Shown here piece by piece: positions 27,496 through 44,375 of a DNA stretch of 64,000 nucleotides. The stretch is from Salinirubrum litoreum (lineage in GTDB: Archaea; Halobacteriota; Halobacteria; Halobacteriales; Haloferacaceae): positions 1,488,001-1,552,000 of the forward strand of contig NZ_JAJCVJ010000001.1 of NCBI RefSeq assembly GCF_020567425.1, given 5' to 3'. The notes below the pieces were generated by a model, which saw only the letters and a program-made list of their open reading frames with translations, was not told the DNA's origin and searched no databases. Made by a program: the position numbers and the translations under genes. Position 1 is the first letter of the stretch. The number at the start of each line of letters is the position of its first letter.

Positions 27496-27517
27496 CGTTG
27501 CTCGTCTCGGCGGGCGG

Positions 27518-27687
27518 ACCACCTCGGCAAGAGGCCGAGGTGTCCGTTCAGACCACCCCGGCATGAGGCCGAGGTGTCCGTTCAGACCACCCCGGCATGA
27601 GGCCGAGGTGTCCTCTCAGACCACCCCGGTAAGAGGCCGGGCTGTCCTCTCAGACCACCCCGGCATGAGGCCGGGCTGTCCTCTCAG
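27518..27687. repeat. Five tandem 34-nt hairpin units
   Basis: Exact 34-nt periodicity starts at 27518, 27552, 27586, 27620 and 27654. Each unit begins ACCACC and contains a short inverted repeat, CCTCGGC-AAGAG-GCCGAGG in unit 1 and CCCGGC-ATGAG-GCCGGG in unit 5, with matching changes on both arms. The array occupies the space between two convergent genes and runs over the stop codon (27684-27686) of the leftward gene. A bidirectional terminator or RNA-stability element is plausible; CRISPR is excluded because there are no spacers. Confidence 0.85.
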
Positions 27688-28328
27688 ACCACGTCGCCTC
27701 TGACGGTCGTCCCGGTCTGTTCGGCGCGGTAGGCGCGCATCGCGTCGGCCGCGTCGCTCGCCTCGCCTTCCTCGACGCCGAGCATCTCCAGTGCGCCCGA
27801 GAGCGTCGGGAACGGGAGTTCGCCGCCGCGTAGTTTCTCGAAGGACTCCTCGGCGACCTGTCCGTCGGCCCAGAGTTGGACGCCACGGGGATCGAGAATC
27901 TGCTCGTAGCGGTCGCGGGTCAGCGCGCCCTTCAGTCGCTGGGTCACGTTGTCGTCGAAACTCGCGTTGCAGACTTCGAGGTGGATCGGTTCGTCCTCGT
28001 CCAGCAGGTGCGCGGCGAGACAGCGCTCGGGTGCGGCGTGGCCGTTGTCGTTCGCCCGGACGTACTCGGGGTACTGCTCGGCCCACTCGGCGCGGACCGA
28101 CCGACCGACGCCCTTCACGCCGAGTTCGCGCTCGAAGCGCTCGGCCGCCTCGCCGTCGCCTCGCAGGAGGATGTCTTTGGTGACGTACACGTCGAGGCGG
28201 TCGATGGGATCGAGGCCGAGTGCCACGTCGCCGTAGACCCACACCTCGCGGATCGGGACCGGCAGGGTGTCGGACTCGACGGTCTCGATCAACTGCGCTA
28301 CGCGGTCGAGGGCGGCGTCACGGTCCAT
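27684..28328 (-). CDS. Conserved haloarchaeal protein (DUF7095-like)
   Basis: A 214-residue soluble protein. The N-terminal part, with VPIREVWVYGDVALGLDPIDRLDVYVTKDILL, has the feel of a nucleotidyltransferase-like GDxxLG...DxDV arrangement (GDVALG then DRLDVYV), but the spacing and the rest are not diagnostic, so I do not assign activity. A CLAAHLLDEDEPIHLEVCNASF segment is conserved in my recollection of the family. Its 3' end reaches into the tandem 34-nt repeat. The name is a memory-based family match. Confidence 0.72.
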   Translation of the reverse strand: MDRDAALDRVAQLIETVESDTLPVPIREVWVYGDVALGLDPIDRLDVYVTKDILLRGDGEAAERFERELGVKGVGRSVRAEWAEQYPEYVRANDNGHAAPERCLAAHLLDEDEPIHLEVCNASFDDNVTQRLKGALTRDRYEQILDPRGVQLWADGQVAEESFEKLRGGELPFPTLSGALEMLGVEEGEASDAADAMRAYRAEQTGTTVRGDVV

Positions 28329-28554
28329 ACGGGTGGTGGGTGGTGGGTGGGGAAAACGGTTTCCGACGATACTCGGAGGGATACGTTTTCGATGTGGATT
28401 CTGGTGGCTCGGTCGTCGGCACGAACTCGGTCGAATCGGTCGTGGAGAAATCGGTCGAATCGGTCGTGAACAACTCAGTCGAATCGGTTACAGACAACGA
28501 GGGGTGAAAGCCCCCGACCGCTCGACCCGCCGCGACTTGGTGCGCGCTTCCCTC

Positions 28555-28587
28555 ACGAGGGCGCGTCGCTTCGCTCCGCGCCCTCGT
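28555..28587 (+). ncRNA. Central hairpin of element copy B
   Basis: An 11-bp perfect stem ACGAGGGCGCG (28555-28565) / CGCGCCCTCGT (28577-28587) with loop TCGCTTCGCTC. The same hairpin recurs on the minus strand in copy C (31442-31474) unchanged. In copy D (44056-44088) both arms carry one compensatory change (GAGGGCGCG to GAGAGCGCG, with CGCGCCCTC to CGCGCTCTC) and the loop is identical. Confidence 0.55.
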
Positions 28588-28965
28588 TCAGTCCAGTGCT
28601 ACCGGCGTCGGGGCGGGGTCGAGCGGTCGGCCCCTTTCAGTCCCACCCGGAATTTGGCGACCCATCGTGTCGTCACTAGTCGTCACCCGGAATCACGTCG
28701 AGATTTGGAACCCGGTTCTCTCGTAGTCCCCACACCTCCCCGACTGCTGAGCGACCGACCTGCGAGCAGGCCCTCGCTGTCGCTCGGACACTGCTCGGTG
28801 TCGGTCGCCACCAGATCGCGTCCTGTCGGGGTTCCGGAATCGGCCGGAACGGGTGACGAACGGGCTGTCTGTGAGTGGGATAAAAGTGTCCGAGTTTTTT
28901 ATAAACCCCGAGTTGCATGCGATTCGGCTCACAAATCGGCGCGCGCGAGGAACGTGCGCGAGGGA

Positions 28966-28993
28966 GGGGACCGGGCAGTGCGGAGAGGTCCCC
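28966..28993 (+). ncRNA. Candidate structured-RNA hairpin, copy B
   Basis: A perfect 7-bp stem GGGGACC / GGTCCCC closes the loop GGGCAGTGCGGAGA. Loop and flanks (GAGGGAG before, GAGGCTGGGGAGGA after) match copies A and D, while five of the seven base pairs differ from copy A. A TATA-like TTTTTTATAAACC lies 62-73 nt upstream of the hairpin, so a transcript starting near 28925 could carry it. Confidence 0.55.
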
Positions 28994-29240
28994 GAGGCTG
29001 GGGAGGATCGAGGTGCGGTGCTGTCGCGGATGCGGTGGCGGGTGCGGTGCGGGGCTGTGCTGTCGCGGTCGTCTCGTCGGTGTGCTAGCAATCGTAGCGG
29101 TGCTGGTGCTGTCGCGGTTCACGGTGCGGTTCCCTGCGCTAGCAATCGTCGCGGTGCTGTCGCGGTCTGCGGTACTGTCGACGTAGCAGTCAGAGTCACA
29201 GTCCCAGCCAGCAGTCACCCCACCACGATCCCACCACACC

Positions 29241-29267
29241 GAGTATCACGAGTATCACGAGTATCAC
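29241..29267. repeat. Short tandem repeat of GAGTATCAC
   Basis: Three exact copies of the 9-mer GAGTATCAC follow each other and a partial fourth (GAATCAC) follows. The array overlaps the stop codon of the leftward DUF4442 gene at 29264-29266. A simple-sequence slippage product is the likeliest explanation. Confidence 0.7.
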
Positions 29268-29716
29268 GAATCACGCCGAACGTACAGCGTCTTCTCGCAG
29301 GTCGCGTGCACAACACCATCCTCGTCGACCACCTCCACCTCGTACACCCGGTCCATCGACTCCCCGCGATCCAGCGAGGTCCGAATCTCCCGAATCTCGC
29401 TCGTCGTCAGTCGAAAGTCGGCGTACAGCGTCGACTCGCCGGGCTTCCGGAACTCGATCTCGGCGGACTTGTCCCAGACGGTGAACGCCGACCCCAGCCG
29501 ACGCTTCAGCATCACCATGTAGATCGGATCGACCGCGCCGTAGATGCTCCCGCCGAAGGTGGTGCCGACGAGGTTCCGGGTGCGCCAGTTGCGCGGGATC
29601 ACGACCTGCACGCGCGACCAGTCCTCGGCGATGTACCGGACGCGAGCGCCGGTGCCGCGATAGGCCGGAAAGCGGTTGAAGACGTGTCGCCAGAGGCGGG
29701 TCCGGAGGGATTCCAT
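29264..29716 (-). CDS. DUF4442 hot-dog-fold protein
   Basis: A 150-residue protein beginning MESLRTRLWRHVFNRFPAYR, with GTGARVRYIAEDWSRVQVVI and NLVGTTFGGSIYGAVDPIYMV (about residues 50-75), then EIEFRKPGESTLYADFRL. These match the DUF4442 branch of the thioesterase hot-dog superfamily. A role in acyl-CoA or lipid metabolism is inferred from the fold only. The ATG at 29716 lies about 27 nt downstream of GGTTTTCC and diverges from ncsA. Confidence 0.87.
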   Translation of the reverse strand: MESLRTRLWRHVFNRFPAYRGTGARVRYIAEDWSRVQVVIPRNWRTRNLVGTTFGGSIYGAVDPIYMVMLKRRLGSAFTVWDKSAEIEFRKPGESTLYADFRLTTSEIREIRTSLDRGESMDRVYEVEVVDEDGVVHATCEKTLYVRRDS

Positions 29717-29802
29717 GCGGGCACTGCTCGCGGTCGCCGGAAAACCACACCGATCTGTCGAAGGCGAAACCGTCATGCCCGCCGGCGGGCAACGCCGGGG
29801 TG

Positions 29803-30771
29803 ATGGAGTGCGACAAGTGCGGCCGCGACGCGGTGATGCACGCCGGCTACTCCGGGGCACACCTCTGTGGCGACCACTTCTGTGCCACCGTCGAGAAGCG
29901 TGTCCGCCGACGAATCCGCGAGGACTCGCTCCTCCCGGACGACGCCACGCCCGACGACCCGGTGACGTGGGTGATCGGCCTCTCCGGCGGGAAGGACAGC
30001 GTCGTCCTCACCGAGATTCTGGCGGACACCTTCGGCCGAGACCCCTGCGTCGAACTGATCGCGCTGTCGATCCACGAGGGTATCGAGGGCTACCGCGACG
30101 AGTCGCTCGACGCCTCGAAGGAACTCACGGCCGATCTGGACATCCACCACGAGGTCGTCACCTACGAGGAGGACCTGGGCGTCCGGATGGACGACGTGGT
30201 GGAGAAGGACCCCGAGAACATGGCCGCCTGCGCCTACTGCGGCGTCTTCCGCCGGGACCTCTTGGAGAGCTACGCCGAGGAACTCGGCGCGGACCTCCTG
30301 CTCACGGGTCACAACCTCGACGACGAGGCCGAGACCGCGCTGATGAACGTACTGGAGGGCGACGTGAAACAGATCGCCAAGCACTTCGACGCGAGTCTCG
30401 GCCCGATGGACGAACGCGCCGAGACCGAGCACTTCGTCCCGCGGGCCAAGCCCCTGCGGGACGTGCCGGAGAAGGAGGTGGCGCTGTTCGCCCACCTGCA
30501 GGATCTGCCGGCCCACATCACCGAGTGTCCCCACGCCAGCGAAGCGTATCGCGGCGAGGTGCAGGAGGTGATGCTCGGGTTGGAGGAGAACCATCCCGGC
30601 ACGCGCCACTCGATCATGGCCGGCTACGAGGAACTGGCCGAACTGGCGGCGAGTCGGTACGGCGAAGATTCCGACGGGAGCGACCTCGGTGAGTGTGAAC
30701 GCTGTGGCTCGACGACGGGGCGGGACGTCTGTCGGAAGTGTCGGCTGATCGAAGCTGTCGAAGCTGTGTGA
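29803..30771 (+). CDS. ncsA: tRNA 2-thiolation protein NcsA (Ncs6/TtuA family)
   Basis: A 322-residue PP-loop ATP pyrophosphatase. An N-terminal zinc site (CDKCGR, then CGDHFC) is followed by the PP-loop SGGKDS (residues 61-66), the AACAYCGVFRR cysteine motif near 140, the GHNLDDEAET block near 165, and a C-terminal zinc ribbon CERCGSTTG / CRKC. It adenylates and thiolates wobble uridine-34 of Lys/Glu/Gln tRNAs using a ubiquitin-like SAMP as sulfur donor. An in-frame GTG lies 3 nt upstream of the chosen ATG. It is close to ftsZ2, a linkage I recall from other haloarchaea. Confidence 0.94.
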   Translation: MECDKCGRDAVMHAGYSGAHLCGDHFCATVEKRVRRRIREDSLLPDDATPDDPVTWVIGLSGGKDSVVLTEILADTFGRDPCVELIALSIHEGIEGYRDESLDASKELTADLDIHHEVVTYEEDLGVRMDDVVEKDPENMAACAYCGVFRRDLLESYAEELGADLLLTGHNLDDEAETALMNVLEGDVKQIAKHFDASLGPMDERAETEHFVPRAKPLRDVPEKEVALFAHLQDLPAHITECPHASEAYRGEVQEVMLGLEENHPGTRHSIMAGYEELAELAASRYGEDSDGSDLGECERCGSTTGRDVCRKCRLIEAVEAV

Positions 30772-30824
30772 GACGTGTTGGTTTTTGATCGGGAGACGGT
30801 CGGTGGATGCTGTCGAACCGTCGA

Positions 30825-31685
30825 CTGCGACTGAGACTGCGACTGCACCGCGAACCGCGACCGTGACTGCTACGTCGACAGCACCGCAGACAGCGACAGC
30901 ACCGCGACGATTGCTAGCGCGGGGAACCGCACCCGCACCGCGACTGTTAGTAGCGCATCTACCAGCGGAACCGCGACCGCACCCGCACAGCACCGCAATC
31001 GCACGAGCCACGAACCCCCAACCGACTGCGTGACTCACGGGAGCGCGCCCACGAGGGGCGCGCTCGGTTGCGTTACTCGTCCCTCGCGTGCGCGTCGGGG
31101 TCGCGCACGCGCCGACCGCACCGCAACAGCACTGCCAACTCTCCACCACAACTCACGACACACTTACCAGTCGCATGGGCTGGCGCGACCTCTGTGTCGC
31201 GCCGACGGTCGCAGGGAGGCGTTCACGCTGAAACCGACTGGTCCACCGGGAGTTGCGTGCGCCTTCACAAACTCGGGTGGGACTGAAAGGGGCCGGCGGT
31301 CTCGTGAGGGAACCGAACGAGACGTTGGAGAGCTTTGCTCTCCAGTACTCTCGACTGGTCCCCGACGCCGGTAGCAGAGCGAGACCTCCGGTCTCGCCAG
31401 CAGTCGGGCGACTCCCGTGTCGCCCGACGACACGGGACTGAACGAGGGCGCGGAGCGAAGCGACGCGCCCTCGTGAGGGAAGCGCGTGGTTCGAGAGACG
31501 CCGAGGGCGTCTCTCGTCATCACGAGAGAGCTTCGCTCTCTCGAACGACACCAAGTCGCGGACCATCGAGAGCGCGGGGGCTTTCACCTCTCGTTGTCCG
31601 CGACTCACTCAGCAGAAATTGCGTCTCACGGGGGCTTTCACCCCACGTTGTCAACAACTATCTCGACCGAGTTCACCGGAGAGTC
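30825..31685 (-). repeat. Structured intergenic element, copy C (expanded)
   Basis: This fills the 944-nt space between the convergent ncsA and GH15 genes. Read on the minus strand it carries two 54-nt units (GGGGGCTTTC cores at 31630 and 31576 as seen on the plus strand), the outer stem in an altered but paired form (CTCTCGA..TGGTCC / GGACCA..TCGAGAG), a row of perfect hairpins (31327-31543), CTTTCAGTCCCACCC (31275-31289) and a GC tail reaching about 30825. The 28-nt hairpin is replaced by a divergent region with a 10-bp hairpin of GAGCGCGCCC. No gene is credible in this gap. Confidence 0.72.
31327..31543. repeat. Row of six perfect hairpins inside copy C
   Basis: Consecutive perfect inverted repeats: 31327-31343 (7 bp, loop TTT), 31379-31397 (8 bp, loop TCC), 31403-31428 (10 bp, loop TCCCGT), 31442-31474 (11 bp, 11-nt loop), 31492-31516 (11 bp, loop GAG) and 31523-31543 (9 bp, loop TTC). 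Most loops are only three bases. Related hairpins occur in copies D and E. Such density indicates a structured RNA or palindrome-driven expansion. Confidence 0.8.
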
Positions 31686-31715
31686 GTGTTTTCCGACTCC
31701 AGAGACTCGAAAGTC

Positions 31716-33905
31716 CTAGTCGTCCGCCAAAGCTTCCACACTGTCGACATCCAACAACCCGTCCGCATCCAACCGCGCCACCGTCGCAAGTCGAAGCGCG
31801 TGCGGCCAGCCCAGCGGGGTCGCGCTGTCCGGCGTCCCGTCGTCGAAGAACTGCTCGGGGAGATACCCCCCGGCGGTCGAGAGCGCCCCGCCGACCGACA
31901 CGAGCGAGAGCAGGTGGCGAGCGCGCTCGGCGAATCGCTCGGCACGCGGGTCGTCGTGTTCGGCCAACAATCCAGCGAGCTCTGCGGCCGCGTTCGCACC
32001 CCACGCGGTCGAGACGGTCCAGACCTTCTCCCGACCCTGCGTGCGAGTCCGCCAGTCGTCGCCCTCGAACCGGATCAGGCCTTCTATCTCTGGGGTCTCG
32101 CGGTGCAGACCCTCGATGGTCGTCTCGACGTGCGAGACGAGTCGGTCCAGTCGCTCTGAATCCACACTACGCGTCGCGTCCGACTCGTCGTACGCCCGGT
32201 GCGCACCGACCAGCGCGAGCGTCGAGGAGTCCAGCCTGTCGTCGAGCGCGGACTCGTCGTCCGCACCGGCGGTCGCGTGGTCCTGATCCGGCGGGGCCTC
32301 GGGGTCGTGTTCCCGGAGGGCGAAGACGCCGCGTTCCGGCACCCACAGGTCGTCGACCGCGTCGTACACCGACTCCGCACTCTCGGTAGCCTGCTCACGC
32401 GCTGCTCCCGAGACCGGCGCGTCGGCCAGTCGGGCGTAGGCGTCGAGGAACGTCGCGGTCGTGTGGGCGAACCGACCGGTCATGTTCTCCCAGGCGTTCT
32501 GGCAGGTGATCGGCCGGCCGTCCTCGGCGAGCGTCTCGTCCAAGCCAGCCAGCGCGTCGGCGAGCGTCTCCCGAATCTCGCCGTCGAGGTCGGCGTCGAG
32601 ATCGTCACCCCGCTCCGCGAGCAGTTCCGCGAGGAAGCCCACCACGCTGCCGGTCTGGTCCGCCTGGTAGTCCACGTCGTCGCCGGCCTCCAGCCGACCG
32701 TGTGCCCACCCCGGCGCGAGACGCCCGTCCCGTGCCCAGACGCGGTGGGGCCACGAGCCGTCTGCACACTGCGTTCGGCAGTACATCCGGGCGCTCCGGG
32801 CGTGCCAGTCCGCCAGGGCGAGGTCGTAGGTCGCGTCCGCCGAGAGCAGGAACCGGGAGATCTCGCCGTCGTCGCGGAACCAGGTGTAGCCGTAGCCGCC
32901 GGAGTAGACGTAGAAGGGGTCGAAGTCCGGCCCGGCGATGCGGAGACCGGTCTCGGCAGAGAGCAGCGAGACGACCCGCAGATCCGGGACGGCGGTGTCC
33001 GGGACGTCGTCCTCGCTCGCCCGCCGGAGTACGTCGCTCCGGGCGTTCTCGGCGGCGGTGACCAGCGCGTCCGTGTCGTGGTGCGCGTCGGCCAGCGCGG
33101 TCAGTCGACCCAGCGCGGCCTCCCGACCCGTCTCGGTCGCGTCGGTCGGGAGCGTGACCAGCGTGGCACCGCCCGACTCGACTGGGACCTCGCCGACCAG
33201 ATCACCACTCAGCCGACCCTCCTCGTAGCGACCCTCGGTCAGCGGTCGTGGGAGGTCGACGGCGTCCGGTCCCAGCACCTCCTCGAACCGGATCGGCACG
33301 CGCCCCTGCAGATCGGCGAAGCCGGTCGCACTCCCGAAGAAGTCGTGTTCGTCGGCGTGGAACACCTCGCACGCGTCGTCGTGTCGGAGCTGACCCAACT
33401 GGGTCTCCTGTCGGTCCGGCGCGAAGCCGACGTAGGCGATCAGCGTCGGCTTGGTCCCGTCGTCGCCGGCCGTCAGTCCGTCGCAGTCGAAGTGTGTCAG
33501 GTGCGCGTCGTCGAGCGTCAGATCGTACTGGACGACCTCGCCGTCGCCCGCGCGGTGGCGCGTGACGACCATCGCGGTGTCGGCGTGGTACGACTGCTCG
33601 ACCGTCTCCCAGTCGTCGAGCCACGTCACGTGCGGGTCGTCGGAGTCCGCCTCGCCCGGGTCGGCATCGCTCGTCTCGACTGGCTCACTCGAATCCGCGA
33701 CACACAGCCCGAACCGGGAGCGTTCGATCCCGTTCAGCCCGGAGAGTGGATAGCCGAAGTCCCGCACCCGCCCGTCGGAGTCGACGTGGACCAGTCGCCC
33801 CGCGTCGCCCGCGAACAACCCCCGTGTCGTCCGCCGCTCGCCGGGGAACCGTGCCGCCTCCCCACGATGGCGTTTGTAGTCGTTCAACGCGTCGCGCAGT
33901 TGCAT
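31716..33905 (-). CDS. Glycoside hydrolase family 15 (glucoamylase/trehalase-like)
   Basis: A 729-residue protein. The N-terminal beta-sandwich region (RLVHVDSDGRVRDFGYPLSG) precedes an (alpha/alpha)6 barrel with GGYGYTWFRDDGEISRFLLS near residue 345 (the WxRD substrate motif) and later LIRFEGDDWRTRTQGREKVWTVSTAW pieces near 640. GH15 enzymes release glucose from alpha-glucans. No signal peptide is present, so it acts in the cytoplasm. The ATG at 33905 lies about 30 nt below TTTTATG (33932-33938). It is divergent from the GH13 gene, and both fit glycogen/malto-oligosaccharide breakdown. Confidence 0.92.
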   Translation of the reverse strand: MQLRDALNDYKRHRGEAARFPGERRTTRGLFAGDAGRLVHVDSDGRVRDFGYPLSGLNGIERSRFGLCVADSSEPVETSDADPGEADSDDPHVTWLDDWETVEQSYHADTAMVVTRHRAGDGEVVQYDLTLDDAHLTHFDCDGLTAGDDGTKPTLIAYVGFAPDRQETQLGQLRHDDACEVFHADEHDFFGSATGFADLQGRVPIRFEEVLGPDAVDLPRPLTEGRYEEGRLSGDLVGEVPVESGGATLVTLPTDATETGREAALGRLTALADAHHDTDALVTAAENARSDVLRRASEDDVPDTAVPDLRVVSLLSAETGLRIAGPDFDPFYVYSGGYGYTWFRDDGEISRFLLSADATYDLALADWHARSARMYCRTQCADGSWPHRVWARDGRLAPGWAHGRLEAGDDVDYQADQTGSVVGFLAELLAERGDDLDADLDGEIRETLADALAGLDETLAEDGRPITCQNAWENMTGRFAHTTATFLDAYARLADAPVSGAAREQATESAESVYDAVDDLWVPERGVFALREHDPEAPPDQDHATAGADDESALDDRLDSSTLALVGAHRAYDESDATRSVDSERLDRLVSHVETTIEGLHRETPEIEGLIRFEGDDWRTRTQGREKVWTVSTAWGANAAAELAGLLAEHDDPRAERFAERARHLLSLVSVGGALSTAGGYLPEQFFDDGTPDSATPLGWPHALRLATVARLDADGLLDVDSVEALADD

Positions 33906-34007
33906 TGCCTGTGGCGATGAATCGCCCCGTCATAAAATTTGGTGTAATTGTAGTTCACAGCTCGCCGGAAGGGGAAGCGTCAAGCCGGTCGCCCGTGGCA
34001 ACCCGGT

Positions 34008-36353
34008 ATGCACCACCCCGGCCCGCCCCGGTTCACCTCGGTCGGCCGACCGGTCGAACTCGCGCCCCGTGCTCCCGAGCAGTCGGTGACAGCCGTCGAG
34101 TTCGACGATCCGACCGACCCTGCCGAACTGGCCCACCGCATCGACGGCGACGCCTTCGCGTGGACGCTCGTTGACACGCCCACCGAGAGCGACGTGACCC
34201 TCGGCGACGGGCCGGTCGTCCACCTCACGCCGGACGAGTCTGGCGTCTACCGGTGCCGACTCACGGCACCAGATGGAGACCACACGGTCGTCGTCCGCGC
34301 GTTCCCCGACGAGCGCAGACCGGCAGCGTTCGCCGTGCCGGTCGCGGACCTTCCCACACCCGCACACCGCATCGACCGCGTCTCGCTCGTGGGGCCGTTC
34401 AACGAGCACCGACCCGGACGGGACCGGCCCGAACTGGTCGACGGCGAGTACGTCGCCGAGACGCGACTGCTCCCCGGCGTCCACCGGTACAGCCTGCTGG
34501 TCAACGACGACTACGAGGAGGCGTACCACGACGAACTCGTCGTGCCGGGACCGGGCCGTCCCCGCGTCGGTCTCGACGCCGAGGTCGATTCGGACGAGGT
34601 CGTCGTCACCGCCGACGCCGAGCGCCCGCCGACTCGCATCGGTGGCGGTGCCGGGCGGTCGACCGACTCGGCGTCGGTAGCGGGCGACGACGAGTCGGTC
34701 TCGGAGACACCACTCTCGGTCGAGTTCCACCTCGACACGCGCGACGGCCTGACGCGCGAGAACGTGACCGTCGAGGGCGAGACACTCCGGATTCCACGGT
34801 CGGCACTGCCGGGGGACGCGGAGTCGGACACGGCCGACGCGAGCGACGCAGTCGACGAACCCGTCAGAGTCCACGCGGTCGCAGTCGGTCAGCGCCACAG
34901 CGTGGCCGACACGGTGGCGATCACGGCGGACGACGGGGGTGAGTCGGCGGCAGACGACGGGAGCGACGACCGGTCGACCGACGACACCGACACGGCTCTC
35001 CCCACGGTCCACCGGCCGAACGACCCGCCCGAGTGGGGCGAGTCGCCGACCATCTACGAGATCTTCGTCCGGACCTTCGCGGGCGGGACCCTCGACACCA
35101 CCTTCGCGGAACTCGAACGCAGAGTACCGTATCTCGACTCACTCCACGTCGACGCGGTGTGGCTCACGCCGGTCGTCGCCAGTCCGACCCGGCACGGCTA
35201 CCACGTCACCGACTACTTCGACACCGCCGCGGACCTCGGCTCTCGCGCCGAGTTCGAGTCGTTCGTCGCCGCCTGCCACGACCACGACATTCAGGTGATC
35301 TTCGACCTCGTGGTCAACCACACCTCGCGGGACCACCCCGCGTTCCAACTCCACTCGGCGGGGGTGCCGAACTACGAGAATCTCTACGACCGGGTCGACG
35401 AGACACCCTTCGCGCCGAACGGGGCGACCGTCCCGAGCGAGGACCGCGACCCCGACTGGGCCGGACCGGGCGCGCCGGACTTCTACTTCAACTGGACGCG
35501 CATCCCGAACGTGAACTACGACTCGCTGGCGGTCCGGGCGTGGATGCTCGCGGTGATCGACGAGTGGGCCGCGGTCGTGGACGGCTTCCGGTGTGACGTG
35601 GCGTGGGGCGTCCCCCACGGCTTCTGGAAGGAGGTCGCCGACCGACTGCCCGACGACTTCCTGCTCTTGGACGAGACCATCCCGGCGGATCCCGCCTACC
35701 ACGAGTCGGAGTTCGACGTCCACTACGACACGCGGCTCTACCACACCCTGCGCGAGATCGGCGACGGCGACCGCCCCGCGACTGCCGTCTTCGACGCGCT
35801 GGACCGCGTCGCGAGCGACGGCTTCCCGCGCTCTGCCGTCCAGATGCGCTACGTCGAGAACCACGACGAAACCAGATATCTGACCGACTGCGGCCGGAGT
35901 CAACTCGCGGCCGCGACCGCGATCACGTTCACCCTGCCGGGTGCGCCGATGCTCTACGCCGGGCAGGAGCGCGGCGTCCCGGGCCAGCGCGGCCGGATGC
36001 GGTGGCACGACGGCGACGACGACCTCACCGCGTTCCACCGGGCGTGTGCCCGCCTCCGTCGGGAGTTCCCCGAACTCGGCACCGCCGACGACGAGTCGGT
36101 CGAACAGGTGGCGCTGTCGCCCGCGCCGGACCACCTCGTCGCGTTCCGGCGCGAGGTCGGCGGGAGGGGAGACGCCGGCGACAGTAGCGAGGACGCGGAC
36201 GCACTGGTGGTCGTCTGCAACTTCGACGACGATCCGGAGACGACGACCGTCGTGGACGCGACGGTCGGCGAGACCGACCTGCTGTCGGGCGAGTCGGTCG
36301 TCGTGGAGGGCGTCGTGCAGGTCGAGCGTGCGGTGGTCCTGCGAGCGGTCTGA
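34008..36353 (+). CDS. GH13 alpha-amylase-family glucanohydrolase (cytoplasmic)
   Basis: A 781-residue enzyme. About 340 residues of N-terminal beta-rich modules, with an acidic linker at 305-330, precede the catalytic barrel. The four GH13 regions are DLVVNH (residues 433-438), GFRCDVAW with nucleophile Asp530, LLLDETI with acid/base Glu556, and VENHDE with Asp620. A C-terminal beta domain follows. The N-terminal modules and lack of a signal peptide suggest a neopullulanase or maltogenic-type enzyme acting on imported or stored malto-oligosaccharides. The promoter is weakly defined; only GCGTCAAGC lies near -27. Confidence 0.93.
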   Translation: MHHPGPPRFTSVGRPVELAPRAPEQSVTAVEFDDPTDPAELAHRIDGDAFAWTLVDTPTESDVTLGDGPVVHLTPDESGVYRCRLTAPDGDHTVVVRAFPDERRPAAFAVPVADLPTPAHRIDRVSLVGPFNEHRPGRDRPELVDGEYVAETRLLPGVHRYSLLVNDDYEEAYHDELVVPGPGRPRVGLDAEVDSDEVVVTADAERPPTRIGGGAGRSTDSASVAGDDESVSETPLSVEFHLDTRDGLTRENVTVEGETLRIPRSALPGDAESDTADASDAVDEPVRVHAVAVGQRHSVADTVAITADDGGESAADDGSDDRSTDDTDTALPTVHRPNDPPEWGESPTIYEIFVRTFAGGTLDTTFAELERRVPYLDSLHVDAVWLTPVVASPTRHGYHVTDYFDTAADLGSRAEFESFVAACHDHDIQVIFDLVVNHTSRDHPAFQLHSAGVPNYENLYDRVDETPFAPNGATVPSEDRDPDWAGPGAPDFYFNWTRIPNVNYDSLAVRAWMLAVIDEWAAVVDGFRCDVAWGVPHGFWKEVADRLPDDFLLLDETIPADPAYHESEFDVHYDTRLYHTLREIGDGDRPATAVFDALDRVASDGFPRSAVQMRYVENHDETRYLTDCGRSQLAAATAITFTLPGAPMLYAGQERGVPGQRGRMRWHDGDDDLTAFHRACARLRREFPELGTADDESVEQVALSPAPDHLVAFRREVGGRGDAGDSSEDADALVVVCNFDDDPETTTVVDATVGETDLLSGESVVVEGVVQVERAVVLRAV

Positions 36354-36471
36354 CTCCGACGGCCACCGCGGCCATCACGTGGGTCGCGTCGTCGACACGA
36401 CGCCCGTCGAGTGTCTCGCGTCACCGAATCTCACCGAGCGATGTAAGTAGACCCGTGAGACAACACGTCGT

Positions 36472-37530
36472 ATGGACGATTCGTCGCTGGCCGACCTCCT
36501 CTCGCAGTTCGGCCTCTCCGACAAGGAGATCGACACCTACCTCACCCTCCTCGATCACGGCGAGGCGAAGGCGAGCACGGTCGCCGACGACGCCGGCGTC
36601 TCGAAGCGGTACGTCTACAGCATCAGCGAGAAACTGGAGGAACGCGGCTTCGTCACGGTCGACGACCACGTCGTCCCGACGACCATCCGCGCGAACCCAC
36701 CGGAGGAAGTCATCGACACGCTCTCTCGCAACTTAGACGAGATGGAACCCGCACTCGCCGACCGGTACACCCGGACCGCACCGGCCGACGCCCGGTTCGA
36801 GGTCGTCAAGTCCCGCGTCACGGTGCTGAAGCGCGCCGCGGAACTGATCGCCAACGCCGACGAGGAGGTCACGCTCTCTATCCCCCACGACCGCCTGCCG
36901 GAACTCGCCGACGAACTCCGGGCCGCACTCGATCGCGGTGTCCTCGTTCTCTTGGTCGTCTCCGGCGTCGAACCCGGTCCCGACCTCGGACTGGACGGAC
37001 TGGCGAGTGTCGCCCGCGCGTGGAGTCAGCCGATGCCGACGATGCTGACCGCCGACCGGCAGTCGGGGCTGGTCGCGCCGACCGAGATGATCACCCGGTC
37101 GAACGCCGGGAAGGAGGCCATCGCGTTCGGGCAACAGCAACTGGGGCCGATCCTCGTCGGGTCGTTCCTCGGGAACTACTGGCCGATGGCCGAGGAGGTG
37201 TACGCCGCCGAACCGACCGCCCTCCCCGCGACCTACCGCGACTTCCGGCACGCCGTCCTCGAAGCGGAACTCCACCGCCGCGCCGGCACACCGATCCGCG
37301 CTCGCGTTCGCGGGCGACTCGTCGGCGGCGAGGAGGAGAGCTTCGAGGAGTTCGTCGGCCGCGTGACCGACGTGCGACAGGGGCTGCTCGCGCCGGGGAA
37401 CAACTCCTTCCCGGTCGAGAACTCCTTCGACATCGAGACCGAGGAGGGTGTCCACCTCGCGGTCGGCGGTCTCGGCGCGTTCGTCGAGGACGTGGAGGCC
37501 AGCGAGGTGACGCTGGAACTGATCGAGTGA
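36472..37530 (+). CDS. trmB: TrmB-family sugar-responsive transcriptional regulator
   Basis: A 352-residue regulator. Residues 1-75 form the TrmB winged helix (LADLLSQFGLSDKEIDTYLT, then ASTVADDAGVSKRYVYSISEKLEERG). Then comes a short helical linker, and the C-terminal half (from about 100) is the sugar-binding domain. Haloarchaeal TrmB senses glucose and switches glycolysis/gluconeogenesis genes. I looked for the described TACT-N7-8-GAGTA operator near this gene and near the GH13/GH15 promoters and did not find it, so local regulation of those genes is unsupported. Confidence 0.9.
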   Translation: MDDSSLADLLSQFGLSDKEIDTYLTLLDHGEAKASTVADDAGVSKRYVYSISEKLEERGFVTVDDHVVPTTIRANPPEEVIDTLSRNLDEMEPALADRYTRTAPADARFEVVKSRVTVLKRAAELIANADEEVTLSIPHDRLPELADELRAALDRGVLVLLVVSGVEPGPDLGLDGLASVARAWSQPMPTMLTADRQSGLVAPTEMITRSNAGKEAIAFGQQQLGPILVGSFLGNYWPMAEEVYAAEPTALPATYRDFRHAVLEAELHRRAGTPIRARVRGRLVGGEEESFEEFVGRVTDVRQGLLAPGNNSFPVENSFDIETEEGVHLAVGGLGAFVEDVEASEVTLELIE

Positions 37531-37861
37531 CGACGCGAGACGGGTGACGTCTCGGAGAGACGAGTGACAGCGGACTGGACCGCGAGGCCGACGGCGACGT
37601 CGAGCCACACTCGATCGAGGGCGAGATCGACCGGAGGCCAGCGGCGGCCACGGTCGCTGTCGGGGGGTGGGCTCCGTCCGTCTCGTCCGATCTCGGCGGC
37701 GACGGTCGCCGGATTCCGTCGCCCTGTATCGGTCACAGTACATCGAAGCCTTGGTACGGGAGGAAATCAACTACTCCGGTAACGCGAACACCACACGCCG
37801 GCGTGGTCGGCCGCACTGGCCGGTCGTGTGGGAAAACCCAACGCGGCACCACGTGATTCCC
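37531..37861. other. Intergenic region downstream of trmB
   Basis: A 331-nt gap with no credible gene. It opens with a perfect 7-bp hairpin CGAGACG-GGTGA-CGTCTCG (37536-37554), 5 nt after the trmB stop, a possible 3' end or stability element. A 12-nt palindrome CACGCCGGCGTG lies near 37793-37804, and GGAAAACCC near 37830-37838 is the likely basal promoter of the reductase gene, 27 nt before its ATG. Confidence 0.5.
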
Positions 37862-39097
37862 ATGACCGAACACTACGATGTCGTCGTCGCCGGGGCGGGT
37901 CCTGCCGGCGCGCAGTGCGCGCGGGACCTCGCCGAACGCGGCTACGACACAGTCGTCCTCGAAACGGAGAGCGAGGCGGAGTTCCCCCGCCAGAGCAACA
38001 AGTCGACCGCCGGGACGTTCCCGTCCACGATGGGGTCGTTCAACATCCCCGACGACGTGGTGATGAACTACACCGACGAGGTCGTCATCGAGTCGCCGAA
38101 CGACGCCTACGGCCGCACCCAGTCGGGCGCGGTCCTGGAGTTCGCAGACTTCAAACGCTGGCTGGTCGCCGAGGGCCGCGACAACGGCGCGGAGTACATC
38201 TTCGACGCGCGTGTCACCAACCCGATCACCGAGAACGGGGAGATAATCGGCGTCGAGTACAATCGCGACGAGGAGGTCTACGGCGACATCGTCGTGGACG
38301 CGACCGGTCCGAACGCACCGCTGGCGAAGAAACTCGGCGTCGTCGACCTCGAACGGGAGAACCAAGCCATCGGGATCGAGTACGAGTTGGAGGGCATCGA
38401 GATCGACCACCCGGACTACGCGGACCTGACGGACGCGATGATGCTCCGACTGGACCACGACCTCGCGCCCGGCGGCTACTCCTGGATCTTCCACACCGGC
38501 GGCGACACCGCGAAGGTCGGCATCTGCTACATCCAGAACACGGCACACCAGGAGTACGCCCGCGACGGCTTCACGGTGGACGACTACCTCCAGTACTGGC
38601 TCGACACCGACCCCCGATTCGCGGACGCCGAGCGCATCGAGGGGAAACAACACCGTGGCTCTGCACACATCCAACTCCCCGAGGGACTGAGCGCCGCGAA
38701 CTTCATGGCGGTCGGCGACACCGTGCCGACGATCGACCCCCTCTGGGGCGAGGGCATCGGGAAGGGCCTCCAGTCGGGCCGCGCCGCCGCGATCACGGCC
38801 GACAACTGTCTGATGGCCGGACTCGACGACACCTCCGCCGAGGCGATGTCCACCTACGACCGCCTCTGGCACGAGACGGTCGCACCGAACGTGAAGAAAC
38901 GACTCCACATGACGCAACTGCTGTACCGCGGGACGAACGAGCGCTACGACAAACTCGTCCGCGATCTGAACAGTATCGGTGGTGACACCCTCCAGCGCGC
39001 CAACGGCGGGGATATTCGCGCACTCCTCCGGATCGTCAAGTCCGAAGACGTGCCGGTGATCGCCCGGTACGCGAAAGAACAGTTCTTCGGGCGGTAG
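37862..39097 (+). CDS. Geranylgeranyl reductase family flavoprotein
   Basis: A 411-residue FAD-dependent reductase. The dinucleotide fold begins MTEHYDVVVAGAGPAGAQCA. The family block GGYSWIFHTGGDTAKVGICYI is near residue 200, and the FAD-closing VGDTVPTIDPLWGEGIGKGL is near 285. Such enzymes saturate the isoprenoid chains of archaeal ether lipids (digeranylgeranylglycerophospholipid reductase) or of quinones/carotenoids. Without other lipid genes near, the precise substrate is open. The ATG at 37862 is set by the GGAAAACCC box 27 nt upstream. Confidence 0.9.
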   Translation: MTEHYDVVVAGAGPAGAQCARDLAERGYDTVVLETESEAEFPRQSNKSTAGTFPSTMGSFNIPDDVVMNYTDEVVIESPNDAYGRTQSGAVLEFADFKRWLVAEGRDNGAEYIFDARVTNPITENGEIIGVEYNRDEEVYGDIVVDATGPNAPLAKKLGVVDLERENQAIGIEYELEGIEIDHPDYADLTDAMMLRLDHDLAPGGYSWIFHTGGDTAKVGICYIQNTAHQEYARDGFTVDDYLQYWLDTDPRFADAERIEGKQHRGSAHIQLPEGLSAANFMAVGDTVPTIDPLWGEGIGKGLQSGRAAAITADNCLMAGLDDTSAEAMSTYDRLWHETVAPNVKKRLHMTQLLYRGTNERYDKLVRDLNSIGGDTLQRANGGDIRALLRIVKSEDVPVIARYAKEQFFGR

Positions 39098-39895
39098 CTA
39101 CTCCGTCTCGTCGAGTCGCACGAGCAGACTCACCCCGACGCGCTCGAAGCCGAGTCGTTCTGCGAGCGCCACCGACGACGACCACTCCTCCAGCGTCCGG
39201 TACTCCGGCACCAGCCCCGCGTCCAGCGCGTGGGCCGTCGCCGCAGAGACAGCGCGCGTCGCGTTCCCCTCGCCACGATACGCCGGACGCGAGACGACCG
39301 CGATGCCGGCGGTTCCGTGCGCGATTGAGTACTGTGTCGCCGCGACCACCTGTCCGTCACGTTCGACTGCGAAGGCCGGTCCGTCGTCGTCGGTCCGCAC
39401 ACCCGACCGGTCCCACTCGTCGGTGGGTGTCGCATCGCGTAGCGAGGTGAGTGACTCGGGTTCGATCAGTCCGACGGGAGACTGCTCGTCGTGGACCGGC
39501 GTGAACGTCGAGTCGTCACAGTAGCCGACGAACTGCGGCCCGAGTACCTCGGCGACTGCGGGGTCGTCGCTATCGACCAACCCACTGGCGGCAGCCTCGA
39601 CCACATCCCGTGCCTCGGTCGTGGTGGGGGCGACAGAACGTTGTGAGAGGGCCGACCGCAGTTCGTCGGTGAGTGCTGGTGGCGCGGAGACGACCACACC
39701 TTCTGGATGGACGAGGATGGCGACCGACCCGGTATCGCTCGCCACGACCGACGCGCCGAACGTGAAGACGCTCGCAGGCTCACAGTCCAAGAGTGCCGCC
39801 CAGTGGTCGCTGATCGTCTCGTGGGTCGCGTGCTTCACACCGCTGGTCTCGACAGGCACGGATGAAAGCGTACCGCCGGTGTGAGACGGAGCCAC
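39098..39895 (-). CDS. GNAT-family N-acetyltransferase
   Basis: A 265-residue protein. The N-terminal half (VPVETSGVKHATHETISDHW, then VFTFGASVVASDTGSVAILVHPEGV) is a GNAT-associated domain. The C-terminal half has the acetyl-CoA loop VVSRPAYRGEGNATRAV near residue 205 and ends with ALAERLGFERVGVSLLVRLDE. The acceptor is unknown. The GTG at 39895 is chosen because an ATATCAAAAC box lies about 27-34 nt upstream; the longer frame from 39958 would translate through that promoter. Confidence 0.85.
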   Translation of the reverse strand: MAPSHTGGTLSSVPVETSGVKHATHETISDHWAALLDCEPASVFTFGASVVASDTGSVAILVHPEGVVVSAPPALTDELRSALSQRSVAPTTTEARDVVEAAASGLVDSDDPAVAEVLGPQFVGYCDDSTFTPVHDEQSPVGLIEPESLTSLRDATPTDEWDRSGVRTDDDGPAFAVERDGQVVAATQYSIAHGTAGIAVVSRPAYRGEGNATRAVSAATAHALDAGLVPEYRTLEEWSSSVALAERLGFERVGVSLLVRLDETE

Positions 39896-40066
39896 GAGTC
39901 GTCGCTGAACCGACTGTATCGGTTTTGATATAGCACCATACAATTTATTGCGGCTCACAGCGACTCGACTCGGTCGCAGACGGGACCCGCAGAATCGGTC
40001 GAAGAGACGTCCTCGTGGCTACTCACGGAGATATTGGCAGAAATCGGACGAGAAACGCGTGAGTCC

Positions 40067-40978
40067 TCAGTCGTCGATCTCGCGGATCGACGTGAACTCG
40101 GCGGCGGCGATGGACTCGGCGACGGTCCGGGCGGTCGGTGTCTCGGGGATGTCGCTCGGATACTTCCGGCGGAACCAGCCGAGCAGGTTCTCCACGTCGC
40201 GTTCGAGCAGTTCGTTGGCGTTCTCGTGGTCGGTCGCCACTGCCTGGGGCCAGTCGAAGATGGTGATGCCGTCCTCGTCGACGAAGACGTTGTACTCGCT
40301 CATGTCGGCGTGGACGTAGCCCGCGTCGTAGGCTCCGGCGACCTCCCGGAGGATCAGATCGAGGACGCCGACGACCTGCCCCGAGTCGAAGCGGGCGCGG
40401 GCGAGTTCGACACCGGGGAGTTTCTCCATCACGATGGCGTGGCGGTTCTGGTCGATGGGACGCGGAACCGAGACATCGGGGTAGAGCGTCTCCAGCACCT
40501 CGTGTTCGCGCTCGGCCGCTTTCCGGGCGGTGTAGAGCCACGAGACGTGGTTCTTGTCCGAAGTGTAGTCGCGTTCCTTGTTCACCGCCCGGAAGTTCGT
40601 GTACCCCTCGCGGTGGAACTTCAGCGCCATCGGCTTGTACGACTGGACCTCGTAGACGTCCGACTCCTTGCCCACCCCGAGCGAGGAGCCGACGCCTTCG
40701 ACCGTGTCTCGCTGGGCGAACGTCCGCAAGGCGAGCGCGTCGTACCCCTCGAAGGTGAGCTGGTAGCCCTCGTACTGGATCGTCTTCCGCTGGATCAGTT
40801 CGCGTTGCATACAGCGATCCAGCCGGTAGTCGACGTTCTCCGGCGTCAGATCGGAGTAGTCGGGCAGTTTCTCGCGGTTCACCCATCGGCTGAACCGCAT
40901 CCCCTGCTCGACGCCCGACAGGAGATAGAAGTCGCCGGGTTCGAGGTCGGCCATCACGGCCGCGATGTTCCGCACCAT
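40067..40978 (-). CDS. rio2: RIO2 serine/threonine protein kinase
   Basis: A 303-residue atypical kinase. Residues 1-90 form the RIO2 winged helix (YRLDRCMQRELIQRKTIQYE). The nucleotide loop is GVGKESDVYEV near residue 100, the catalytic loop is VHADMSEYNVFVD near 221-233 and the metal-binding loop is TIFDWPQAV near 236. RIO2 acts in late 40S/30S subunit maturation. The CCCTTTTACG box (41001-41010) 27 nt upstream sets the ATG at 40978. Confidence 0.95.
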   Translation of the reverse strand: MVRNIAAVMADLEPGDFYLLSGVEQGMRFSRWVNREKLPDYSDLTPENVDYRLDRCMQRELIQRKTIQYEGYQLTFEGYDALALRTFAQRDTVEGVGSSLGVGKESDVYEVQSYKPMALKFHREGYTNFRAVNKERDYTSDKNHVSWLYTARKAAEREHEVLETLYPDVSVPRPIDQNRHAIVMEKLPGVELARARFDSGQVVGVLDLILREVAGAYDAGYVHADMSEYNVFVDEDGITIFDWPQAVATDHENANELLERDVENLLGWFRRKYPSDIPETPTARTVAESIAAAEFTSIREIDD

Positions 40979-41117
40979 GGCTCTCCGTCGGTGCGCAGGG
41001 CGTAAAAGGGCCGCGAGTCGGCCGACAGGGGGAGCACGTAAATCGTATGTCGCGATAGCAAATCTTCGGGTGGACGAATCGGGGCACACAGATTGCCCCG
41101 TGGGTGGCGGGGTCGTC

Positions 41118-41978
41118 CTACATCCCCATCGACATCGTGAACGAGATGGGCAGATCCGGCTGGACGACGAGCACGAACAGGCCGGCCAGCAGGCCGACGA
41201 TGCCGGTCGAGACCGCCAGCTCCCGCCCCCACGACGGGAGTCGTTCGACGGTGACGACGGTCGTCAGCGCGACCATCCAGAAGAAGTTCATCTCGCCGAA
41301 GAAGGGCATCAGGAGGAAGAACGGCGCGAAACAGACGAGGATACAGCGCGTGCCGTGCCGCGCGCCCTCGCGGAACGCCTCGGGGATGTCGTCGGTGTGC
41401 GGGGCGACGTGTCCACAGCAGTCGCGGAGGAGGCGCTGTTTGAACGCCGTGAGTTGGTAGAGTCCGGTGAGCACGAGGACGCCACCGATCACGAAGCGGG
41501 TGTGCGCCTGTGTGAAGCCGTGGATGCCACCGGGGAGAAGCAGGTGAAAGCCGAGTGGGATCACCGCGGAGAGTGCCCAGACGATGTGGTAGCTCGTGAG
41601 GAAGGAGGTGACCGAGAGCGCTGTCTGGGTGGTGGAGCCACGGTGGGCAGCGGTGTAGTCGCGGGCGAAGCGAGTCATCGGCGGGTGCATCATCGCCCAC
41701 ATCATCACGCCCCACATGACGGTGTAGTCGATCACCGCACCGACGGTACCGACGTGGAAGACCCCGAGTTCCATCGCGCCCGGCGCGGCCATCGGGACGC
41801 TGGCGTCCTGCATCAGCCACATCATCCCCGGCATCGGGACGTGGCCGTCCCACAGCAGCACCCACCACAGGGCGTCGAGACCGATCATCGCGACCACGGC
41901 GGTCGTCGCGCGGTCGAGCGAGAGGTCGAAGACGCCGTCCAGATCGACGTCGGGGAGGTAGTCGCTCGCGGTGCTCAC
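41118..41978 (-). CDS. DUF2182 integral membrane protein
   Basis: A 286-residue membrane protein with about seven helices, rich in Met and His (HVPMPGMMWLMQD, VMWGVMMWAMMHPP near residues 85-100, C-terminal FTMSMGM). The MWxxMMxPP block is typical of DUF2182 proteins, which are associated with copper or other metal handling, although no activity is established. It starts at a GTG (41978) preceded by a strong Shine-Dalgarno GGAGGTG at 7 nt spacing, so it is translated from a leadered mRNA, unlike most genes here. Confidence 0.85.
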   Translation of the reverse strand: MSTASDYLPDVDLDGVFDLSLDRATTAVVAMIGLDALWWVLLWDGHVPMPGMMWLMQDASVPMAAPGAMELGVFHVGTVGAVIDYTVMWGVMMWAMMHPPMTRFARDYTAAHRGSTTQTALSVTSFLTSYHIVWALSAVIPLGFHLLLPGGIHGFTQAHTRFVIGGVLVLTGLYQLTAFKQRLLRDCCGHVAPHTDDIPEAFREGARHGTRCILVCFAPFFLLMPFFGEMNFFWMVALTTVVTVERLPSWGRELAVSTGIVGLLAGLFVLVVQPDLPISFTMSMGM

Positions 41979-42240
41979 GCCGAGACACCTCCGGCGGCTA
42001 CCGGGACTCGGCGAGCAGTCGGCTGTCGGTCTCCCGAGAAGCGGGCGGGAGGGTCGTCGATACAACACGGCAGAGAACAGGTCGGACACATTGCGTCCGC
42101 AGAGACGGGGAGCAGGCGGAAAAGCGGGGGCGACGTTCCGGAGTTCCGTCACGTCGGGTCGGTCGTCGGGCATCGTCCCACGACGGCTCACGTCACCCCA
42201 CGTCGCCGTGGCTTTATCGGGGGATACCGTAGCCCGGATC

Positions 42241-42966
42241 ATGACAGACAGCGCGATCATCGTCGGTGCCTCCTCCGGGATCGGCGAGGCACTGGCCTAC
42301 GAACTCGCAGACGAGGGGTACGAAGTCGGACTCGCCGCGAGACGACTCGAACGACTCCAAGAGATCGGAAGCGATCTGCCGACGAAGGCGTACGTCGCCA
42401 AGATGGACGTGACAGAGGTGGAGGAAGCCCGCGACCGCCTCCGGCGACTGATCGACGCGATGGGTGGCTGTGACCTACTGGTGCTCTCGGCGGGCGTCGG
42501 CGACCTGAACCCGGACCTCGACTGGGAACCGGAGCGACAGACCGTGGACGTGAACGTCCGGGGGTTCACCGCGCTGGCGACACTGGGGATGCAGACCTTC
42601 GCGGAACAGGGATCGGGCCACCTCGTCGGCATCTCCTCGGTCGCGGCGAACTTCGGCAACGGCGGCGCGCCGGCGTACAACGCCTCGAAAGCCTACGTCG
42701 CCCGGTATCTGGAGGGGCTGCGCTACTGGGCCGACAACGCGGACGCCGACATCACCGTGACCGACGTGGAACCGGGGTTCGTGGACACGAAGATGGCCAT
42801 GGGCGACGAGTTGTTCTGGATGGCGAGTCCGGAGACGGCGGCCGAACAGATCGCGAGCGCGATTCGCGCGAAGCGCCGGCACGTCTACGTCACCCGACGC
42901 TGGCGGCTGGTCGCGTGGCTCCTCTCGGTTCTGCCGGAACGCGTCCTCTCGCGGCTGTTCGACTGA
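42241..42966 (+). CDS. Short-chain dehydrogenase/reductase
   Basis: A 241-residue classical SDR. The cofactor loop is IIVGASSGIGEALA (residues 6-19), the NAG-equivalent is LSAGVGD near 86, the catalytic Ser is in GISSVAANFG, and the YxxxK pair is in AYNASKAYV near 152-156. The C-terminus is basic and hydrophobic (RRWRLVAWLLSVLPERVLSRL), which suggests membrane association. NAD(P) preference and substrate are unknown. A GGCTTTATCG box (42207-42216) gives a leaderless ATG. Confidence 0.92.
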   Translation: MTDSAIIVGASSGIGEALAYELADEGYEVGLAARRLERLQEIGSDLPTKAYVAKMDVTEVEEARDRLRRLIDAMGGCDLLVLSAGVGDLNPDLDWEPERQTVDVNVRGFTALATLGMQTFAEQGSGHLVGISSVAANFGNGGAPAYNASKAYVARYLEGLRYWADNADADITVTDVEPGFVDTKMAMGDELFWMASPETAAEQIASAIRAKRRHVYVTRRWRLVAWLLSVLPERVLSRLFD

Positions 42967-43024
42967 CGTCGGGGACGACCACCGGAGGACAACCGCTTTG
43001 CCCCTCGCGGGCCGACCGACGGGC

Positions 43025-43873
43025 ATGGACGACCTCGCGGACCGGGAGTGGCGCGTGATCCCCGAGGAGCCACGCCCCGGTCCGATGCAGATGGCACTGG
43101 ACGAGATCGCCGCCGAGACGGCCGGCGCAGGCGGTCCGCGGACAGTTCGCGTCTACCGGTGGGAGCCGAGTTGTCTCTCGCTGGGCTACCGGCAGGCGGC
43201 CGACACGGTGGACTGGGACTACTGCGAGTCGGCCGGCGTCGACGTGACGCGCCGGCAGACCGGCGGCGGCGGCATCTACCACGACGCGGTCGGCGACATC
43301 TCCTACTCTATCGTCGCGCCGAAGTCGGAGCTACCGGGCGACCTCATGGACTGCTACCACCTGCTGTGTGAGCCGATTCTCGCGGCGATTCGCCGGATGG
43401 GCGTCCCGGCGCGGTTCGTCGACTCGGAACTGCCGGCGCTGTACGACCCGGCCTGCTACCTCCGGGCGCTCCACCCGGCACACGACGTGGTGGTGCCGGA
43501 TTCGAGTGAGGCTGACGAGGACGACGAGTCCGATGGTCGCGTTCGGAAGTTGGCCGGGAACGCGCAGTACCGCCGGAAGGACGCGGTGATCCAGCACGGC
43601 TCGATCACCTACTCGGTCCGGCCGGAGGCACACCTCGGCGTGTTCGCCGATCCGGGTGTCGATCCGGCGGGGTTCCGAGAGCGCGTGACCGGCGTCGACG
43701 AACACGCCGACTGCTCGCGGGCAGCGGCTGTGGACGTGCTGACCGAGACGCTGACCGAGTGGGCCGACGCCGAGGTGGGTGGGTGGAGTGAGGAGGAGGT
43801 GTCGCGGGCGCGAGAGCGCGTGGAGACGAAGTACGACGACGAGGAGTGGGTTCGGGAACGAAGACGAACGTGA
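43025..43873 (+). CDS. lplA: Lipoate-protein ligase A family protein
   Basis: A 282-residue BPL/LPL-fold protein. Matches are RVYRWEPSCLSLGYRQ (about residues 40-55), VTRRQTGGGGIYHDAVGDISYSI in pieces near 75-97, and the lysine segment RKLAGNAQYRRKDAVIQHGS near 180-195. It attaches lipoate, or octanoate, to the lipoyl domains of 2-oxoacid dehydrogenases or GcvH. An acidic insertion (SSEADEDDESDG) precedes the catalytic Lys. The ATG follows a CTTTGCCC box by 27 nt. The repeat element copy D begins about 24 nt after its stop. Confidence 0.91.
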   Translation: MDDLADREWRVIPEEPRPGPMQMALDEIAAETAGAGGPRTVRVYRWEPSCLSLGYRQAADTVDWDYCESAGVDVTRRQTGGGGIYHDAVGDISYSIVAPKSELPGDLMDCYHLLCEPILAAIRRMGVPARFVDSELPALYDPACYLRALHPAHDVVVPDSSEADEDDESDGRVRKLAGNAQYRRKDAVIQHGSITYSVRPEAHLGVFADPGVDPAGFRERVTGVDEHADCSRAAAVDVLTETLTEWADAEVGGWSEEEVSRARERVETKYDDEEWVRERRRT

Positions 43874-44375
43874 GACGGTTGCGACGTGGCTGTCGTGAAC
43901 TCGGTCCAATACGTCGGAGAGAACTCGGTCGAATCTGTCGCAGACGACGAGAAGTGAAAGCCCCCTGCGTCTCGACCCGCCGCGTCTGGCGAGAGCGAAG
44001 CTCTCGCTGAGTCTCGTTCGGTTCCCTCACGAGACACTCGGTGCGCGCTTCCCTCACGAGAGCGCGTCGCTTCGCTCCGCGCTCTCGTTCAGTCCAGTGC
44101 TACCAGCGTCGGGGCGGGATCGAGATTCTTGAGAGCGAAGCTCTCCAACGTCTCGTTCACTTCGTTCACGAGACCGCCGGCCCCGTTCAGTCCCACCCGT
44201 GTGCGACCCATCGTGCAACGCCCGGTGGACCAGTCGCTTTCAGCGATGCCCTACCTGCGACCGTCGGCGCGAGATGAACTCGCGCCAGCCCACTCGACTG
44301 GCAAGTGTGACGTGAGTCGGGCTTTCAGTTCGGTTGTCGCTGTGTGGTCGGCGTCTTCGTGAGCGTGCGAACAGG

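Follow-up and report, generated by a model that had tools for sequence, protein, structure and literature searches.

Covariation between the two arms of a helix is the standard proof of a conserved RNA structure. The window studied here, a stretch of 64,000 nucleotides of Salinirubrum litoreum DNA, carries four copies (A to D) of an intergenic hairpin whose helices show paired changes, which raises the question of whether the pairing is maintained in a transcript or in the DNA itself. An initial annotation had described helices of these copies, regarded the segment as one domain, and implied from the covariation that it folds as a transcript.

Four copies of the element in the window

The proposed helices are found by direct reading of the copies (Table 1). 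The outer stem is CGACCGCTCGACC/GGTCGAGCGGTCG in A and B, CTCTCGA..TGGTCC/GGACCA..TCGAGAG in C, and GTCTCGACCCGCC/GGCGGGATCGAGA, with a bulged A, in D; the central hairpin ACGAGGGCGCG-TCGCTTCGCTC-CGCGCCCTCGT of B and C is replaced by ACGAGAGCGCG/CGCGCTCTCGT in D, with the same 11-nt loop. The apical stem of copy A, which the annotation had omitted, has a quite different sequence that is equally paired (AGGCGAGCCGG/CCGGCTCGCCT). The end boxes had been said to pair as TGAAAG with CTTTCA, and this needs qualifying for D, whose right box CGTTCAGTCCCACC (CGTTCA, one substitution) leaves one A-G mismatch. This end stem shows no compensated variation among the four window copies and covaries only between genera, where A-U is changed to G-C in 6 copies.

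Copies C and D measure 312 nt and 244 nt, respectively, against about 144 nt for the core, owing to extra inserted hairpins, and folding shows that the inserted palindromes of C form hairpins of their own. With up to two mismatches, the right box has 5 matches in the window against 0.35 expected, one of them intragenic, at 14084. The leader repeats GAATCGGTCG..GACAACGAGGGG are a feature of copies from this genome, and a GGCTGGGGAGG-like motif lies downstream in 27 of 38 of them.

Table 1. Positions of the copies and of their associated parts in the window
Feature	Position	Strand	Description
Copy A, core hairpin with different apical hairpin	21361-21497	-	150.1 bits with the covariance model; fold z -7.3
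Extra left-end boxes before copy A	21483-21620	-	tandem, period ~54 nt
Leader of copy B	28440-28503	+	GAATCGGTCG..GACAACGAGGGG repeats ahead of the left box
Copy B, core hairpin	28504-28647	+	141.8 bits with the covariance model; fold -92.9 kcal/mol, z -8.7; order: left box GTGAAAG, C-rich internal loop, nested helices, apical hairpin, right box CTTTCAGTCCCACC
Downstream conserved part, composite unit of copy B	28648-29007	+	GAGGCTGGGGAGG motif at end; read in the sequence
Copy C, core hairpin and several inserted hairpins	31276-31587	-	DNA match
Copy D, core hairpin and inserted hairpins	43954-44197	+	partial model match 44036-44109

A repeat family of haloarchaeal genomes

Copies A to D are members of a family of hairpin repeats from intergenic DNA, with at least 45 strong copies in the S. 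litoreum genome. A DNA search of this genome returned 63 match pieces, with 73-90% identity to copy B over long matches, and a covariance model was built on 26 insertion-free copies; of its 68 matches, 45 reach E < 1e-7. The genome-wide statistics rest on these model and BLAST searches. The sequence GGTGGGACTGAAAG occurs 58 times, and its reversed control not once. The two largest contigs hold all but one of these 45 strong copies (P = 2e-4).

Of 60 relatives across the order, 39 are matched by the same model, and some of these harbor 30 to more than 50 copies. A pattern scan of named genomes gave at least 120 stretches; among the matches listed (80), nearly all are haloarchaeal, and the two bacterial records among them look like chance. 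No match to the element was found in the phage records searched. In viral contigs, the right-box pattern has a single match (L366, positions 2967-2985), on what may be a virus or a chromosomal fragment. Within the window, tRNA was the sole match to Rfam 15 at gathering thresholds. No description of the element, by sequence or in words, was found in the open-access literature, most subscription journals lying outside this search. The element is abundant in the intergenic DNA of haloarchaea and has apparently not been described before.

Fold and covariation of the individual helices

Full copies fold into a long hairpin in which conserved unpaired motifs interrupt the pairing at constant positions, most notably a CCC x CCC loop next to the boxes on their inner side. 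In long copies, additional palindromes fold as side hairpins, and some copies of the S. litoreum genome have no hairpin, as in L100 (GTGAAAGCCCCCGGCCCCTTTCAGTCCCACC). Almost all of the copies examined fold into this single interrupted hairpin, in agreement with the view of the segment as one domain.

The claim that further helices covary is amply confirmed outside the window. Among 26 copies from the S. litoreum genome, 97.1% of the cells are paired, against 81.4% after shuffling and at most 45% when slid, and 162 cells are doubly changed, against 47 and at most 17, respectively. In an alignment of 83 copies from many genera, double changes occur at 39 of 43 pairs (485 cells), with a covariation score of 0.298 against 0.086 for shuffled copies. 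Homologous copies with uncompensated broken pairs, which the annotation had named as a ground for refutation, do occur, at a low rate only: about 3% of cells are broken in the S. litoreum copies and 12% across genera, a figure that includes misalignment.

Each helix varies on its own. The arms of a same helix share normalised mutual information of 1.00, 0.91, 0.80, and 0.72 (z 8-13), whereas all comparisons between arms of different helices, even neighbours on one strand, remain at |z| <= 1.5. As the helices are mutually independent and their arms locked, the exchange of whole hairpins is excluded as the only cause of the coupling. This leaves either selection for pairing in each helix or local copying of one arm from the other.

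Pairing in RNA or in DNA

The G-U content distinguishes the element from tRNAs. With two exclusions, a position that reads G-U in each of the 26 copies and a pair of poor alignment, G-U accounts for 9 of 1066 cells in the S. litoreum copies and, across genera, for 8 of 1349 in the outer helices. The tRNAs of the same loci, a control of only 12 genes, have 25 of 279. This corresponds to about 1% in the element helices versus about 9% in the tRNAs, that is, roughly 7 to 15 times fewer G-U pairs. A-C cells, which would be G-U on the other strand, number 15 in the S. litoreum copies and 25 across genera. Read on the minus, G-rich strand, there are therefore 40 G-U and 17 A-C cells, a weak excess (p = 0.003, pooled).

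By a hand count, the double changes among the S. litoreum copies are mostly transversional (G-C to C-G), a change with no route via G-U. Both strands fold equally well (z -8.7 on the plus and -6.8 on the minus strand for copy B), and the apical loops also occur reverse-complemented (CAAG in 16 cases and CTTG in 1, GAA in 10 and TTC in 5). Among the marks of a structured RNA, compensatory changes are present both within the genome and across genera, and tolerance of G-U on the transcribed strand is absent. The near absence of G-U suggests that the match between arms is kept in the DNA itself and not in an RNA. Taken together, the low G-U content, the transversional double changes, and the equal folding of both strands favour Watson-Crick matching in DNA. 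The step from covariation to a folded transcript, which the annotation had implied, is not supported in view of the scarcity of G-U, the equal folding of the reverse strand, and a placement linked neither to 3' ends nor to convergent gene pairs, and with no strong preference for one orientation.

Genomic position and turnover

Gene context was derived from gene calls made with a simple codon-usage script. In their gene-orientation classes, the intergenic regions that carry the element match the other regions with a length of 150 nt or more (p = 0.30); 5 of 62 lie between convergent genes, against 37 of the 248 without it, and a further 22 of the 62 are found between divergent genes. Outside the S. 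litoreum genome, copies next to co-directional genes are weakly biased towards the orientation that would yield a G-rich-strand RNA (28 versus 13, p = 0.03), a bias not found in S. litoreum itself.

At the orthologs of three window loci in other genera, the element is mostly missing, few sites having been tested. In a congeneric pair of genomes (G002 and G029), 8 of 20 sampled copies could be matched at orthologous sites, where the flanking genes are about 85-93% identical. These eight pairs comprise 231 unchanged base pairs, 31 with one-sided changes (25 broken), some of which result from misaligned inner loops, and 19 with two-sided changes (16 paired). By our estimate, about 1 doubly changed paired cell would be expected from single changes, against the 16 observed. 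One copy of this genome pair is inverted as part of the complete intergenic region around it, close to an inverted repeat of short length (GGATTTCTGAG/CTCAGAATCC), and another is cleanly missing from the sister species, as a unit of about 300-310 bp between a stop codon and a promoter region. No clear target duplication was seen at that one empty site, which could also be a deletion.

Comparison with known repeats

The element behaves like the SMR-A, PATE, and REP repeats, but it fails certain SMR-A and REP features among those tested. SMR-A of Haloquadratum walsbyi is about 110 bp long, has inverted ends, makes no target duplication, reaches up to 54 copies that are commonly more than 95% identical, and has no known transposase; the sites at which a repeat is inverted or replaced were named SwitchRepeats (PMC3119063). 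The element is likewise haloarchaeal and too short for a transposase, its end boxes pair, and its one empty site has no clear duplication, but its copies are far more varied (73-90% to copy B). They stand alone in plain intergenic regions; SMR-A copies are described as using near-terminal palindromes of PATEs and of IS605-type elements as targets (PMC3119063). PATEs are short, transposase-free, and palindromic, as is the element, and make no target duplication; they have no terminal inverted repeats and share their ends with IS605-type elements (PMC3119063). By contrast, the ends of the element pair with each other and are absent at the Y1 transposases of its own genome. A link with the IS200/IS605 transposases of this genome was considered and rejected: it has three Y1 matches, and no boxes lie around any of them.

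Bacterial REP/BIME sequences with their RAYT (Y1) proteins are also high-copy, extragenic, imperfect palindromes. REP units are much shorter than the element, and a GTAG signature adjoins their hairpin. No GTAG is present at the conserved ends of the element, GTGAAAG and CTTTCAGTCCCACC, and none of the three Y1 matches is a cognate gene flanked by copies. The attC sites of integrons are imperfect palindromes too; they are recognised as folded single strands, with the structure kept and the sequence free. The conserved boxes of the element lack core sites of that type, and the element lies outside cassette arrays.

Origin of the matching arms

Several explanations can be weighed against these data. 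The main rival to the reading favoured below is a structured RNA: each copy would be read into RNA, possibly off the minus strand, and its hairpin would serve as a cis element or small RNA, with compensatory substitutions maintained by selection. This would be compatible with the covariation at 39 of 43 pairs, the conserved unpaired motifs, and the minus-strand and orientation excesses (40 to 17 and 28 to 13). We nevertheless regard it as rather unlikely in view of the tRNA comparison (G-U at about 1% against 9%), the equal folding of both strands, the mixed orientation of the copies with no like bias in S. litoreum, the turnover of sites between genera, and the failure to match any Rfam family. 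A role at gene ends, as transcription terminator or 3' UTR stabiliser, is scarcely credible: the hairpin is stable and some copies lie just past a stop codon, but convergent gene pairs are not enriched and many copies lie between divergent genes.

The copies could also be ordinary mobile repeats of the MITE, REP, or PATE kind, non-autonomous and folded as a single strand into the substrate of an IS200/IS605-type or other transposase. Their dispersal, the empty site, the inversion, and the similar small repeats known from Haloquadratum (PMC3119063) point that way; the lack of element ends at the Y1 transposases, the want of a clear target duplication, the near absence of copies from the smaller contigs, and the lack of phage records, with one viral contig, make it an improbable account. 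Ectopic gene conversion that swaps whole hairpins between copies, with no special coupling of arms, would fit the greater likeness of copies within a genome than elsewhere, and the orthologous sites at which stems differ while the flanks remain close. As sole cause it is disfavoured by the unlinked nested helices with locked arms, and swapping an inner or outer helix alone needs matching tracts on both arms; we judge it highly improbable.

The reading that we favour, with about even confidence, is a palindromic DNA repeat, non-autonomous, in which arm-templated correction keeps the two arms matched. It starts from what is observed, namely the hairpin fold, the family and its spread, the helix-by-helix coupling, the presence or absence at one site, and the inversion at another. 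The repeats would be dispersed, non-coding nested palindromes in haloarchaeal intergenic regions, and each would come and go as a unit. When a strand folds into a hairpin or cruciform in the course of replication or repair, one arm might serve as template for its partner (quasipalindrome correction), and a change in one arm would be either copied into the other or erased. The conserved boxes and inner motifs may be recognised by a putative protein, of the host or of the element, by which the unit spreads; no protein of this kind was found. Against this DNA reading, conservation across an order, seen for the right box, for the inner motifs, and for the CCC x CCC loop, demands selection or recognition and not mutation bias alone. 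Against it stand also the minus-strand G-U excess and the orientation bias, as weak hints of RNA, and the 25 cells with single uncompensated changes between G002 and G029. As for an autonomous partner, the Y1 transposases of the genome were found without a flanking element.

To the wider proposition, that these are pan-haloarchaeal chromosomal palindromes whose helices evolve separately, the two arms of each changing jointly with hardly any G-U or mismatch intermediates, and that arm-to-arm DNA templating produces RNA-like covariation without an RNA, we grant slightly less than even confidence. An abundant family with overwhelming covariation and no RNA-type G-U signature could mislead RNA discovery, and could also teach how polyploid archaea keep DNA palindromes symmetrical. 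If arm-to-arm templating is true, the family would be a natural system for measuring the mechanism.

Arrangement of copies and neighbouring repeats

Some further arrangements were observed. Extra left-end boxes about 54 nt apart also precede the hairpin at 31580-31650 (minus strand), and in another genome (L069, L072) the left-end box recurs with a period of about 90 nt, part of an old stem arm being retained. In S. litoreum, the leader that adjoins the left box of three copies (L027, L037, L094) is built of tandem units of about 24-27 nt, perfect or nearly so, and three other copies (L008, L015, L030) directly follow a tRNA gene. Close pairs of copies in opposite orientation are found in many genomes (L159, L139, L131, L103, L172, L112, L121, L105), mostly tail to tail, with the right boxes facing each other about 20-80 nt apart. 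Within the window, five 34-bp tandem units (GACCACCCCGGCATGAGGCCGAGGTGTCCTCTCA), themselves hairpin-like, lie at a gene end and past it, at 27483-27692. Two inverted 80-nt repeats, at 29123-29202 and 30854-30933, are 91% complementary to each other and flank two genes; they appear to form the distal ends of the composite units to which copies B and C belong.
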